Assembly: GCF_947503465.1 (NCBI RefSeq)
Contig: NZ_CANNDN010000001.1
Span: forward strand, 2,129,501 to 2,193,500
From: an uncultured Tateyamaria sp.
Lineage (GTDB): Bacteria > Pseudomonadota > Alphaproteobacteria > Rhodobacterales > Rhodobacteraceae
Length of the DNA: 64,000 bases
Reading direction: 5' to 3'
In this document: positions 9,478 to 44,802 of the stretch, piece after piece
Layout of the letters: the number at the start of each line of letters is the position of its first letter
Numbering within the stretch: the first letter of the stretch is position 1
Position numbers and translations under genes: made by a program
The notes under the pieces: model-generated
Told to the model about the DNA's origin: nothing
The model's input: only the letters and a program-made list of their open reading frames with translations
The model's database searches: none

Positions 9478-10191
9478 ATGAGACTATCTTCGCCAATTTA
9501 CACACTTAAGCGTCAAGCAAAACTGCTGGCACGCGACAATGAAATCAAGCTCCACGAGGCACTCAACCAGCTTGCAACCAAAGAGGGCTTCAGGGATTGG
9601 AGCCACTTGGCGTCCAGCTATTCCAAAGCAACTCCAGCCAAAGAAATCATGAGCCAGCTCAAATCAGGCGATATGGTGCTGATCGGTGCGCGCCCTGGTC
9701 ATGGCAAAACCCTTCTTGGGCTGGAGTTGGTTGCATTGGCCAAAAAAAGCAATCGGACAGGTTATGTTTTCTCTTTGGACTACAATGATACGGATGTGTG
9801 GGATCGGTTTGAAAAACTAGGTTTCGACCCAAAGCAACAAGACGGTCCAATCGTCGTTGATACCTCGGATGATATCTGCGCTGATCATATCATTGAACGC
9901 CTCGGCGATACGTCGGGTGATGCATTCGTTGTCGTCGATTACTTGCAGCTTTTGGATCAACGGCGCAGCATTCCACCGCTCGAAGAACAGGTGCGTGCGC
10001 TTAAGGAATCTGCCGTCGAATTTGGAGCGATTGTTGTAATGATCTCACAGATCGATCGCTCTTTTGAGCTGTCAACTAGTGACATGCCGAGCATTGAGGA
10101 CATTCGATTGCCAAATCCAGTCGACTTGGCGCTTTTTGATAGAACGTGCTTCTTACATGACGGCCAAATACAGATAGAGTTGGCAGCATAA
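9478..10191 (+). CDS. Small DnaB-like RecA-fold ATPase with an N-terminal helical module
   Basis: A 237-residue protein resembling only the ATPase core of replicative helicase DnaB. Walker A is GARPGHGKT, Walker B is VVVDYLQLL, the sensor motif is VVMISQIDR, and IEDIRLPNPVDLALFDRTCFL matches the end of the DnaB core. The primase-binding N-terminal domain of DnaB is absent. Instead, about 50 residues (IYTLKRQAKLLARDNEI and EGFRDWSHL) form a small helical module. DnaB is about 450-500 residues, so this cannot be a replicative helicase. Codon use is AT-richer than its neighbours, suggesting transfer. Role unknown; GGAGG lies upstream of the ATG. Confidence 0.7.
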   Translation: MRLSSPIYTLKRQAKLLARDNEIKLHEALNQLATKEGFRDWSHLASSYSKATPAKEIMSQLKSGDMVLIGARPGHGKTLLGLELVALAKKSNRTGYVFSLDYNDTDVWDRFEKLGFDPKQQDGPIVVDTSDDICADHIIERLGDTSGDAFVVVDYLQLLDQRRSIPPLEEQVRALKESAVEFGAIVVMISQIDRSFELSTSDMPSIEDIRLPNPVDLALFDRTCFLHDGQIQIELAA

Positions 10192-10237: not shown

Positions 10238-10278
10238 TCCCGCACAGCCGGCCAACAACACTTCCTTAACGAATAGGG

Positions 10279-10419
10279 CCGTACGCGCCGTTAACCCGCT
10301 GAATTCCCCTAATCGTATGCCGCGCTGTGCACAGGGTGTGCACAGGGGGTGTACGGGTTGTGACCAGGCCCAAAGCCAACAAACAAAAGGGTTAACGCGC
10401 GGTCAGGCGACGTCGCGTC
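10279..10419 (+). repeat. Intergenic element with 11-bp-phased GTGYAC repeats, copy A
   Basis: A 141-bp element between convergent genes. CGTTAAC is at 10289, GAATTC at 10301, TATGCCG at 10316. GTGCAC, GTGCAC, GTGTAC and GTGACC begin at 10327, 10338, 10349 and 10360, exactly 11 bp apart. GTTAACGCG is at 10391 and ACGTCGCGTC at 10410. A second copy with nearly the same spacing lies at 43873-44012. It does not look coding. Function unknown. Confidence 0.75.
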
Positions 10420-10430
10420 CTCTTGGTTGG

Positions 10431-11342
10431 TTAACCGTTGCGCGTACGGTGCGGTCCCGCCAGTGCCGCAACACCCAGGATGACGCCCGAAACGGTCGCG
10501 ATCATCCCCGCCGCGCTGACAGAGGCCGACGCCCCGATCCACAATGGTCCATAGCCCGCCAGCACATATCCCGACACCGCCGCCAGCGCCGCGAACACAA
10601 CCGACCACGCCACCTGATGGCCCAGCCGGTTCGTCATCATCCGCGCCGCAGCCGGGGGGCAGATGAACATCGCAATCACAATGATGGACCCCACCGCGTC
10701 AAAGGCCGCAACCGCTGCGATCGCGGACATGATCACCAATGCAAGACCCAAGGGCCCGGTGCGAATACCCACGCCACGGGCAAACCCCTCGTCAAAGGTG
10801 GACAGGGCCAGTGGGCGCCAGAAAAGCCCTAAAAACAATACGATGACCACCAGCGCAAGCGCCATCCTCGGCAGTTCGACCGGCAGTCCCGACAGCGAGA
10901 CGGGGTCCAGCAACGACGCCCAGCCTGTCGCGTCCAACCAGATCAGGCTCTCCAGATTTCCGTAAAGCGCATGTTCCACATCCAGATGAACCGACGAGGT
11001 GTCCGACTGCTCCAAGAGCAGCACACCGCCTGCAAACATCGCGGTGAAGATCACCCCCATCGCGGCCCCGGCCTCGATCCTGCCCAGGCGTCGCACGGCC
11101 TCAATCGCGACCACTGCAAGCACCGCAGCCCCCGCGGCCCCCAGCAGCATCGGGCCCGTCGCCACCAGCCCCGTCAGCAGGAAGGCGACAACGATCCCCG
11201 GCAACACCACATGGCTGATTGCATCCCCAATCAACGCTTGCCCCCGCAGCAGCAAGAAATTCCCCGGCAGCGCGCATGCGACGGCAACCAGCACGCCAAT
11301 GACGATGGGCGGCAATGACAGGGAGACGAATTCGGCGGTCAT
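10431..11342 (-). CDS. sitD: Manganese/metal ABC transporter permease, second permease
   Basis: A 303-residue inner-membrane permease of the ABC-3 (metal) family with about eight helices. Signature segments are ALPGNFLLLRGQALIGDAIS near the N-terminus and FDAVGSIIVIAMFICPPAAA in the C-terminal half. It pairs with the permease encoded by the preceding gene to form the channel of the importer. The ATG at 11342 overlaps the sitC stop by one base (TGATG). The operon order (binding protein, ATPase, two permeases) is the SitABCD arrangement. Manganese is favoured over zinc from the binding protein; see sitA. Confidence 0.86.
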   Translation of the reverse strand: MTAEFVSLSLPPIVIGVLVAVACALPGNFLLLRGQALIGDAISHVVLPGIVVAFLLTGLVATGPMLLGAAGAAVLAVVAIEAVRRLGRIEAGAAMGVIFTAMFAGGVLLLEQSDTSSVHLDVEHALYGNLESLIWLDATGWASLLDPVSLSGLPVELPRMALALVVIVLFLGLFWRPLALSTFDEGFARGVGIRTGPLGLALVIMSAIAAVAAFDAVGSIIVIAMFICPPAAARMMTNRLGHQVAWSVVFAALAAVSGYVLAGYGPLWIGASASVSAAGMIATVSGVILGVAALAGPHRTRNG

Positions 11343-12544
11343 CACGCAACCACCTGCGGAGCTGCAATTTTCCCATCAATTTCCGACAGTTGATCGGGCG
11401 TCAGAACGTCCTCGATCGGCGTCAGGCCGTCATAGCGCATGGCGGCCAAAGCATAGGCCTGATCCCCCCGCACAATCGCCCAGCGCGTCTCGTCCAACAG
11501 CGCCTTCGACGCGGCCGCCTGCCCCTCTGCCGTGGGTACGCCATCGGGCAGGATCAGTCCCGAACGCGCCAGCAAGCGCCGCGTTAGGGCCTCGTAGATC
11601 GGCTGACCGTTGGCAAGCGCCAACAGGCCCTGCCGAACGTGCACGCGGCGCTGGTACCGAAGATGCACCAGCACCGATGCCAGCACCCCTCGGCGCGGGG
11701 AAAAGAGCAGCGAAACCAGAAAGATGGCAAAGCCCACCAGCACAACAATCGGTCCTGTCGGAAGGGCAGGTGCCACAGCGGATACCGCCGCACCGACATA
11801 TCCGGAAACACCGCCGACACCGCCCGCGATAACCACCACATGGTCGGCCCGTTCCGTCCAGAACCGCGCCGTCACCGCAGGCACGATCAGCAACGCGACG
11901 ATCAGGATGAGCCCCACGACCTTTAGGCCCACCACGGTGACCACCAGAACGATCCCCATCATCGCCAGATCGATCCGCGGCAGCGACCACCCCGTCGCCT
12001 CGGCATAGCCTGGATCAAACGCTGCCAGGCCCAGGGGGCGCCGCAGGATCAGCACCAGCACCAGCACCAACGCCGCAGAGACGGCCAGCAGAATTGCGTC
12101 GCTACGCAGCATCCCGGCGGTCGAGCCCAGCAAGAAACCTTCCAACCCCGCCTGGCGGCCCGCATTCATCGCCTGAATCACTGTCAGCACAACAATCCCA
12201 AAGCCAAAGAATACAGACAGAACTGCACCAATCGCTGCGTCTTCGCCCAGGCGCGTTCGTTGGCTCAGCCACTGGACACAAAGCAGGCCAAGGGCCGCCG
12301 ACCCGCCCGCGCCCAACAGCAACCCGACAAGCGACCGACCCTCACCGCCCAGTGCGACCATGACGACAAAGGCAAGGCCGATACCTGGCAAGGTGGCATG
12401 GGAAATCGCGTCACTCACCAACGCCCGCTTGCGCAAGAACAGGAAGGTCCCGGCCACGCCGGCAGCAATGCCCAGCAGGGCCGCGCCAAGGGTCACAAGG
12501 GTTGCGTTATACCCCAGCTGCAACAGCAGCGCATCGGCCAGCAC
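11342..12544 (-). CDS. sitC: Manganese/metal ABC transporter permease with cytoplasmic C-terminal extension
   Basis: A 400-residue protein: an ABC-3 permease (first 290 residues; LRKRALVSDAISHATLPG is the typical DxxSH region) followed by about 100 extra cytoplasmic residues. The extension (EALTRRLLARSGLILPDG, then DETRWAIVRGDQAYALAAM) resembles the winged-helix part of DtxR/MntR-like regulators; this is known from some TroC-type permeases. The start is a GTG at 12544, three bases after the sitB stop. It overlaps sitD by one base. Confidence 0.85.
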   Translation of the reverse strand: MLADALLLQLGYNATLVTLGAALLGIAAGVAGTFLFLRKRALVSDAISHATLPGIGLAFVVMVALGGEGRSLVGLLLGAGGSAALGLLCVQWLSQRTRLGEDAAIGAVLSVFFGFGIVVLTVIQAMNAGRQAGLEGFLLGSTAGMLRSDAILLAVSAALVLVLVLILRRPLGLAAFDPGYAEATGWSLPRIDLAMMGIVLVVTVVGLKVVGLILIVALLIVPAVTARFWTERADHVVVIAGGVGGVSGYVGAAVSAVAPALPTGPIVVLVGFAIFLVSLLFSPRRGVLASVLVHLRYQRRVHVRQGLLALANGQPIYEALTRRLLARSGLILPDGVPTAEGQAAASKALLDETRWAIVRGDQAYALAAMRYDGLTPIEDVLTPDQLSEIDGKIAAPQVVA

Positions 12545-43061: not shown

Positions 43062-43089
43062 CCATGCTGACAGCATGGTGTCAGCATGG
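43062..43089. promoter_or_regulatory. Perfect inverted repeat between GFA-fold gene and WYL regulator
   Basis: CCATGCTGACA (43062-43072) and TGTCAGCATGG (43079-43089) are exact reverse complements with a six-base spacer. The site is 46 bp from the GFA-fold start and 33 bp from the regulator start. It is a likely operator for the adjacent YafY-type regulator, possibly controlling both divergent genes. Confidence 0.65.
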
Positions 43090-43122
43090 AGACACCGGGC
43101 TTGCACCAAGGGGAAACACAGT

Positions 43123-43818
43123 ATGCGACGCGGCGATCGCCTGTTTGAAATCATCGAAATCCTGCGGCGCGCGTCGGGGCCCATCTCTGCGGACTCCATC
43201 GGCGCAAAGCTTGAAGTGACCAAGCGCACGGTTTACCGCGACATCGCCGCGCTGATGGCCCAACGCGTGCCCATCCGCGGAGAGGCGGGCGTGGGTTACG
43301 TCCTGGACCCGGGATTTCACATGCCACCCCTGATGCTGACAGCGGACGAGATCGAGGCCGCCGTCCTGGGCGCCCAATGGGTCGGGACACGGGGCGAGGC
43401 GGACCTCGCACAGGCCGCCGCCAGCCTGATCGCCAAGATCGCCGCTGTCGTCCCGGACGATGCTCGGGGCATCTTTGTCGAACCCGCCACCAGTGTCGCA
43501 CCGGTCGGCTCACCGCCAGAGGTCCTGAGCGCCGCTGACATCCGCGTTGCCATCCGCCAGCGGCACAAGATCGCGCTCACCTATCAAGGCAGCACAGGCA
43601 GCCAGACAAGGCGCACCATCTGGCCCATCCTGATCGGTTACCGCGACGCGGGTCGCATCATCGCTGCATGGTGCGAATTGCGGCACGGCTTCCGCTACTT
43701 CCGCACCGACCGCATCGCCCGGGCCCAGGTATTGCCCGACATGATCCCGCGTCGCATGGACCTGCTGCGCAGCGAATGGCGTGCCGCAATGGATGCGGAA
43801 CGCAAACGCCATGCGTAA
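43123..43818 (+). CDS. YafY-type transcription regulator (HTH plus WYL domain)
   Basis: A 231-residue regulator. Residues 1-60 are a winged helix-turn-helix (RLFEIIEILRRASGPIS, then LEVTKRTVYRDIAALMAQ). Residues about 135-225 are a WYL-like ligand-sensing domain, with IALTYQGSTGSQ and IIAAWCELRHGFRYFRTDRI. The ATG at 43123 follows a weak AAGGGG purine run. It is divergent from the GFA-fold gene with a perfect inverted repeat in between. Ligand unknown. Confidence 0.88.
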   Translation: MRRGDRLFEIIEILRRASGPISADSIGAKLEVTKRTVYRDIAALMAQRVPIRGEAGVGYVLDPGFHMPPLMLTADEIEAAVLGAQWVGTRGEADLAQAAASLIAKIAAVVPDDARGIFVEPATSVAPVGSPPEVLSAADIRVAIRQRHKIALTYQGSTGSQTRRTIWPILIGYRDAGRIIAAWCELRHGFRYFRTDRIARAQVLPDMIPRRMDLLRSEWRAAMDAERKRHA

Positions 43819-43872
43819 GGCGGATCAAACATCCGCCCAACCCCGCGTCAACGCATCGTTAACCTTTCAGCA

Positions 43873-44012
43873 CCGTGCGCTGCGTTAACCCTGCGAATTC
43901 ATGAAGAATATGCCGGATCGGTGTACAGGGTGTGCACAGCAAGTGCACAGGTTGTGTATCGGCCATCGCCCTTGTTTTCATGGTGTTAACGCGAGTCGGG
44001 AAACGTCGCGTC
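43873..44012 (+). repeat. Intergenic element with 11-bp-phased GTGYAC repeats, copy B
   Basis: CGTTAAC is at 43883, GAATTC at 43895, TATGCCG at 43909. GTGTAC, GTGCAC, GTGCAC and GTGTAT begin at 43921, 43932, 43943 and 43954, exactly 11 bp apart. GTTAACGCG starts at 43985 and ACGTCGCGTC at 44003. Spacing is nearly identical to copy A. It lies between convergent genes. Confidence 0.75.
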
Positions 44013-44048: not shown

Positions 44049-44696
44049 TCAAAATGGCGCGGCACTCCGAAACCGCATCATTTTGCCACTGTCCGGATGC
44101 TTGATCCGCAGCTCTTCTGAATGCAGCATCAAACGCTCAAAGTTCCGCGCAGGCCCCTCTGCATAAAACGGATCGCCCAATATCGCGTGCCCCAGTTCCG
44201 CCATATGCACACGCAACTGATGGCTGCGCCCGGTCTGCGGCATCAGCCGCACCCGGCTCTCTGTTTCGGTGTCGCGCAACACCCGCCAATCGGTCACCGC
44301 GGGCTTGCCGTTCTCATGATCCACATGCTGTTTCGGGCGGTTCGGCCAGTCCACGATCAGGGGTAGGTCAACCCGCCCCGTCTTGGGCGTCATCCGCCCC
44401 CAAACCCTTGCCACATATGTCTTTTTCGCAGCCCGCAGCTCGAATTGCTTGCCCAGGAACCGCTGCGCATGCGGCGTCAATCCAAACACCATCACCCCGC
44501 TGGTATCCCGGTCCAACCGATGCACCAACAACGCCTGCGGCCACACCGCCTGCACCCGCGCAATCAGGCAATCCGACAGGTGCGCCCCCTTGCCCGGCAC
44601 ACTCAGCAGGCCCGAGGGTTTCGACACCACCAACATCTCTGCGTCATCATGCAGGATGTCCAGGGGATCATTTGGCGGGGCGTAAATGTCATCCAT
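44049..44696 (-). CDS. RluA-family pseudouridine synthase
   Basis: A 215-residue enzyme making pseudouridine in 23S rRNA and/or tRNA. The catalytic aspartate is in LLVHRLDRDTSGVMVFG; other motifs are KPSGLLSVPGKG and MPQTGRSHQLRVHMAELGHAI. It lacks the S4 domain of RluC/RluD, so it is like the short RluA (about 215 residues). The ATG at 44696 was chosen because MDDIYAPPNDP fits family starts; the longer frame to 44801 overlaps the divergent esterase promoter. Confidence 0.9.
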   Translation of the reverse strand: MDDIYAPPNDPLDILHDDAEMLVVSKPSGLLSVPGKGAHLSDCLIARVQAVWPQALLVHRLDRDTSGVMVFGLTPHAQRFLGKQFELRAAKKTYVARVWGRMTPKTGRVDLPLIVDWPNRPKQHVDHENGKPAVTDWRVLRDTETESRVRLMPQTGRSHQLRVHMAELGHAILGDPFYAEGPARNFERLMLHSEELRIKHPDSGKMMRFRSAAPF

Positions 44697-44802
44697 GTTC
44701 GCCGCCTGACAAATGTGCCGGCCAATGACAACCCCCATCACGATTGAGAGAGGGGTCAATACAACAATTGCCTGAATCGGCCGCCCGTGTTCTGTCAGCA
44801 AT

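Follow-up and report, generated by a model that had tools for sequence, protein, structure and literature searches.

Proteins of the ribbon-helix-helix (RHH) fold are often repressors, and SegB, from the Sulfolobales, shares this fold. In enterobacteria, the dedicated protein MatP goes with matS, a single palindrome confined to the terminus region; KOPS are single octamers, polar with respect to replication, that are recognised by the gamma domain of FtsK. In Myxococcus xanthus, the RHH protein CdbA organises the chromosome, recognises a direct repeat spaced by a helical turn at > 500 ChIP sites (about a third of the peaks being intergenic), and binds c-di-GMP (PMC7156744). SegB is a segregation protein that binds DNA at sites dispersed along the chromosome (PMC12284271).

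The arrays described here, from an uncultured Tateyamaria and other Rhodobacteraceae, find their nearest working analogue, so far as analogy can carry, in CdbA. Both cases involve an RHH protein (by inference in ours), a repeat spaced by one helical turn and many chromosomal sites; however, the CdbA repeat has two parts, whereas here some 30 or more discrete arrays of three to five units occur per genome, and these are polar and change their hexamer between genera. As with SegB, the sites of a (here putative) DNA-binding protein are scattered over the chromosome, but SegB works with the ATPase SegA at mainly intragenic sites near segAB, whereas our arrays are mostly intergenic and genome-wide. 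A dedicated DNA-binding protein and dispersed specific sites would also recall MatP/matS, although our arrays are multi-unit and not enriched at the terminus. Likewise, they resemble KOPS/FtsK in being many and polar with respect to replication, but differ in being multi-unit and tied by covariation to an RHH protein. Our literature searches, which covered few subscription papers, found neither this protein nor this array described for Rhodobacteraceae. ZapT, the Caulobacter terminus protein, was considered and rejected, as it belongs to the MerR family and has no consensus motif (PMC7188993).

The window, i.e. the whole 64 000-nucleotide stretch analysed (C1:2129501-2193500), comes from a genome of 4.1 Mb in 10 contigs (G000). 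In it, the original prediction recognised a 140-bp element present twice, as copies A and B, between convergently transcribed genes. The predicted block offsets are matched in both copies, block order in copy B (43873-44012) is that of copy A, both do lie between convergent genes (Table 1), and the alignment of the two stands, with 78% mean column identity over 209 columns. The repeat is therefore real, but the element proper is an array of hexamers at 11-bp steps and not the 140-bp unit. Three GTGYAC words at this step occur within the window only in copies A and B. When up to three mismatches were allowed, the array pattern had nine matches in the window against 0.23 expected, a number reached in none of 100 shuffles. 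With R1, a sequence profile made from 30 arrays, the core of copy A (C1:2139820-2139878) scores 47.8 bits and that of copy B (C1:2173410-2173476) 55.4 bits. The right outer arm of copy A contains the CACCGTACGC of the left arm in inverted form and overlaps the minus-strand gene at its 3' end, and ACGTCGCGTC is essentially confined to these two copies. As a separate observation, the plus-strand gene adjoining copy A encodes a 237-aa protein with a match to DnaB_C, the DnaB-like helicase C-terminal domain (E 9e-17), which is odd for a small stand-alone protein, and a weak match to Glyoxalase_8 too.

Table 1. Coordinates of features of copies A and B and of the RHH gene (window positions unless a contig is given; single numbers are block positions)
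Feature	Position	Strand	Detail
Copy A, flanking gene	9478-10191	+	
Copy A, flanking gene	10431-11345	-	
Copy A, left arm GGCCGTACGCGCCGTTAACC	10277..10296	+	common to about half of the 32 genomic copies
Copy A, blocks	10289; 10301; 10316		CGTTAAC; GAATTC; TATGCCG
Copy A, hexamers	10327 and 10338; 10349; 10360		GTGCAC (two); GTGTAC; GTG
Copy A, core array	10327..10365	+	GTGCAC-N5-GTGCAC-N5-GTGTAC-N5-GTGACC, 11-bp step
Copy A, right blocks	10391; 10410		GTTAACGCG; ACGTCGCGTC
Copy A, GTTAACGCG module	10391..10399	+	right of array
Copy A, right outer arm CCGTTGCGCGTACGGTGC	10435..10452	-	exact match to class I motif
Copy B, flanking gene	43075-43818	+	
Copy B, flanking gene	44049-44801	-	
Copy B, left arm CACCGTGCGCTGCGTTAACC	43871..43890	+	
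Copy B, core array	43921..43959	+	GTGTAC-N5-GTGCAC-N5-GTGCAC-N5-GTGTAT
Copy B, GTTAACGCG module	43985..43993	+	right of array
RHH gene	C3:10002-10364	-	121 aa, outside the window

Beyond the window, the genome holds not two arrays but 32. The R1 search returned exactly this number at ≥ 43.8 bits, while the next new place scored 11 bits; the arrays are distributed 19, 5, 5 and 3 on the four largest contigs, so that all large contigs carry them, and none was found by this search on the six small ones. The array pattern at up to two mismatches gave 77/72 matches in this genome and the reversed pattern 3/1, and control patterns of this kind, together with the shuffles, exclude chance or base composition as the origin of the family. 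Common to its members is a core of four or five GTGYAC units, repeated at exact 11-bp steps and separated by variable spacers. GTTAAC/CCGTACGC arms accompany the core in about half of the 32, A and B included: CACCGTACGCNCCGTTAACC stands to its left and a GTTAAC module to its right, and several copies have CCGTTGCGCGTACGGTGC farther right; the remainder are armless. Among class I copies genome-wide, the arms CACCGTACGCNCCGTTAACC and CCGTTGCGCGTACGGTGC include inverted CACCGTACGC. Three arrays (L008, C1:1118065; L012, C1:1204507; L050, C2:172179) share a second module, roughly TTAACCTNNTTGAATANANNGTAAA, on their right side.

Arms that extend over about 200 bp in roughly half of the copies in this genome, with partly inverted ends, are what one might see if the arrays were a dispersed non-autonomous mobile element (MITE- or REP-like) carrying operators of an RHH protein. 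We think this improbable: the other copies have no arms, the R1 search of this genome found no half-decayed copies, and, as detailed below, polarity is consistent and positions are kept between genera whose hexamers differ.

Most arrays in the genome are intergenic. Their gene contexts, which were derived with a simple ORF caller so that distances are approximate, comprise nine '--', seven '++', seven convergent and five divergent cases, with two arrays inside called ORFs. Convergent placement, a mark of the element in the original prediction, thus applies to only seven of 32 arrays, near random expectation; that it was stressed reflects how the two window copies happen to lie. The median distance of an array to a gene 3' end is about 21–90 bp, and gene starts are farther away.

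The idea that the element binds a protein has gained support, and a probable binding protein could be identified from sequence alone. When neighbouring genes were compared in eight genomes, a small protein was found adjoining an array in four of them, at different loci; these four proteins share about 33–54% mutual identity, and the array lies upstream of the gene. The protein matches Pfam PF14384, BrnA_antitoxin (E 9e-12 to 4e-16, above the gathering score), and has a conserved N-terminal region beyond the BrnA-type domain. In the Tateyamaria genome, the RHH gene is an orphan with one of the 32 arrays in its promoter. A profile of the protein has matches in 61 of 149 family genomes (one per genus), and a class-wide search gave matches spanning most of its length only in Rhodobacteraceae, those elsewhere covering chiefly the RHH core. 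NCBIfam offered no usable name, the profile met no PDB chain at E ≤ 1, and the AlphaFold monomer was mediocre (pLDDT 73), its PDB fold search being without a match. No RHH protein was detected in two genomes with GTGYAC arrays, both fragmented drafts: G139, with 470 contigs and arrays genome-wide (e.g. L024, L034, L038), and G147, which is 73% complete. A prfC-like gene is preceded by an array in both the Tateyamaria genome (L004) and G073 (L200); the RHH gene is at this locus only in G073, that of the Tateyamaria genome sitting elsewhere with another array.

Taken at face value, the Pfam match would make the arrays operators of a BrnA antitoxin in a type II toxin-antitoxin system. We find this scarcely tenable, as BrnT (PF04365) is absent from nine of 10 genomes, that of Tateyamaria included, and the tenth (G011) has it on contigs other than that of the RHH gene. 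The likeness to BrnTA is one of the BrnA-type RHH domain; the missing BrnT, the extra conserved N-terminal region and the genome-wide arrays set our system apart.

The array architecture recurs in other Rhodobacteraceae; with this, and with 32 copies in the Tateyamaria genome instead of two, the condition named as refuting the original prediction did not arise. The GTGYAC pattern matched 13 of the 149 genomes, about 10 of them with many matches and clean controls, and the rest had zero; array sites in the pattern-positive genomes were fetched only in part. RHH-protein genomes outnumber those with GTGYAC arrays because promoters there carry different hexamers: in most matched genomes, the RHH promoter has an 11-bp-step array of another word at about -95 to -150. 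These words are genus-specific, and include ATGCAC, ATGCGC, GTATGG, GTATGA, GTCGGG, GTCGGC, GTCTTC and others. A collection of some 85 000 species genomes supplied 80 named RHH loci, the closest in Tateyamaria, Roseobacter and Tropicibacter, with further ones in Roseovarius, Marimonas, Lentibacter, Roseicyclus, Yoonia and Loktanella. Of the 80, 45 had their best promoter repeat lag at 11 bp and four at 12 bp.

Searches of whole genomes with the hexamer of the RHH gene's own promoter showed that, in the genomes tested, the word is dispersed genome-wide where that promoter has it and not in others. Thus, ATGCRC arrays were found in G140 (63/66), G032 (39/53) and G084 (18/21) with controls of 0, GTATGR arrays in G067 (89/86) and G071 (18/20) with controls of 7–11 for these two genomes and few or none elsewhere, and many exact copies of GTCGGG arrays in G035. 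In G399 and G170, whose RHH promoters both have GTCGGC arrays, genome-wide counts of this word were 59/98 (control 0/2) and 5/3 (control 0/0), respectively, against zero in the Tateyamaria genome. The broad pattern GTMKGR did not separate clearly from its control in G003 or G116.

This variety of words bears on whether the arrays act as RNA, e.g. as a terminator or processing signal in which each GUGYAC pairs with the next. Neighbouring GTGCAC words could indeed form 6-bp stems with 5-nt loops, and arrays frequently come right after a stop codon. Yet GTATGG and GTCGGG of other genera are not self-complementary, array orientation is unrelated to transcription, and the window has no Rfam match, so that we consider an RNA structure very improbable.

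The hexamer also varies with the protein. Over 86 RHH proteins, we compared the promoter word with the presumed DNA-reading beta-strand, KxRVTxR. Where strand residue 7 is R, the first base of the hexamer is G in all 41 classifiable cases, and where it is A, S or G, the first base is A in 10 of 10 (41/0 versus 0/10, p 8e-11). At strand residue 3, K goes with GTMKGG words and R with GTRCAC or ATGCRC words (6/0 versus 1/52, p 2e-7), while Q is found with GTAG words in three cases; in G399 and G170, the protein has K at this position. There are exceptions: CGGCTG arrays go with four R3/R7 proteins in which residue 2 is acidic, and no promoter array could be recognised for 11 of the 86. As shared ancestry was not corrected for, the p-values overstate the support. 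Nonetheless, this covariation is what would be expected if the RHH strand read the hexamer directly. That the RHH protein reads the arrays is strongly supported, and we hold it with high confidence, although it remains an inference without a binding experiment.

Some orthologous positions carry arrays of different hexamers in different genera. At a liv-type ABC transporter locus, arrays are present in the Tateyamaria genome (GTRCAC), G011 (GTRCAC) and G035 (GTCGGG), at a dnaJ locus they are present in the Tateyamaria genome and G067 (GTATGG), and there are three further shared-position pairs. A rough estimate from array numbers and about 3500 intergenic regions puts the sharing expected by chance at well below one per genome pair.

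Array polarity, scored for one defined strand against the locally G-rich strand under a gene-direction convention, was likewise marked. The defined strand was the G-rich one for 82 of 90 arrays over four genomes (28/32 in the Tateyamaria genome, 17/18 in G035, 18/20 in G032 and 19/20 in G067), although in G011 the figure of 12/17 was not significant. Transcription does not account for this polarity, since orientation is independent of gene direction (16/32), and GC skew keeps its sign whichever way the genes run. The strand bias relative to replication that was to be looked for is therefore clear against local GC skew, but weaker against KOPS-like GGGNAGGG, with which arrays agree in 25 of 31 cases in the Tateyamaria genome and in only about 20 of 33 in G035, perhaps as a result of rearrangements. 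On C1 of the Tateyamaria genome, GGGNAGGG is itself strongly polar and switches strand near 0.48–0.54 Mb, the probable terminus. Arrays are not enriched at the probable terminus of G035 (about 8/33 lie in the Mb centred on ter, the chance level for a 3.79-Mb contig), and there is no ori or ter enrichment by which to pin array function.

These data also bear on a rival view, in which the RHH protein acts as an ordinary transcription factor with the arrays as operators of its regulon. That its gene has an array in the promoter in most genomes is in keeping with such a role. Elsewhere, however, array context is near random, with gene 3' ends nearer than starts, and array orientation tracks the G-rich strand and not gene direction; we regard a regulon as unlikely, though less so than a mobile element.

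Instead, we favour, as probable though by no means settled, arrays that are cooperative sites of a dedicated RHH nucleoid-associated protein and serve as polar chromosome landmarks. Each array would bind one small orphan RHH protein, a member of the BrnA_antitoxin fold family, whose dimers would follow one another along the same side of the helix, each on its own hexamer, as the 11-bp step suggests, with the beta-strand reading each hexamer; physical binding and its cooperativity are both inferred. Through its promoter array, the protein most probably represses its own gene, autoregulation being inferred because the array lies in that promoter. The other arrays, some 30 or more per genome, mostly intergenic and in fixed orientation to the long-term leading strand, would be polar landmarks for organisation, segregation or fork/translocase traffic rather than promoter operators. 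This chromosome role is an inference too, and it fits arrays that lie away from promoters and are polar with respect to replication.

With marginally more reserve, we also think it probable that this is an undescribed chromosome-marking system, in which an orphan RHH protein is joined to about 30 or more helically phased polar arrays per genome. Across Rhodobacteraceae, the word would then have changed in whole genomes on several occasions, with the polarity and some of the positions retained, and the outcome would be a natural, largely readable RHH–DNA code. If so, chromosome marking in a large group of abundant marine bacteria relies on an undescribed protein–DNA system, and the Pfam BrnA_antitoxin label disguises a chromosome-marking protein as a stray antitoxin. 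Beta-strand recognition could be decoded from dozens of naturally occurring RHH protein–site pairs, and the system would open to experiment how these chromosomes come by their replication-linked polarity. It would then be an evolutionary question how some 30 or more dispersed sites and their reader switch word together.

Two minor observations concern the arrays more widely. Some RHH genes have promoter repeats of 12 bp instead of 11 bp (L316 in G104, L314 in G144, L370 and L382). A phage operator was considered but not adopted: a viral scan with the array pattern gave 114 matching stretches, most with a single match, and one viral contig (L109, IMGVR_UViG_3300033485_000006) matches the GTGYAC array exactly at three places 33 bp apart.
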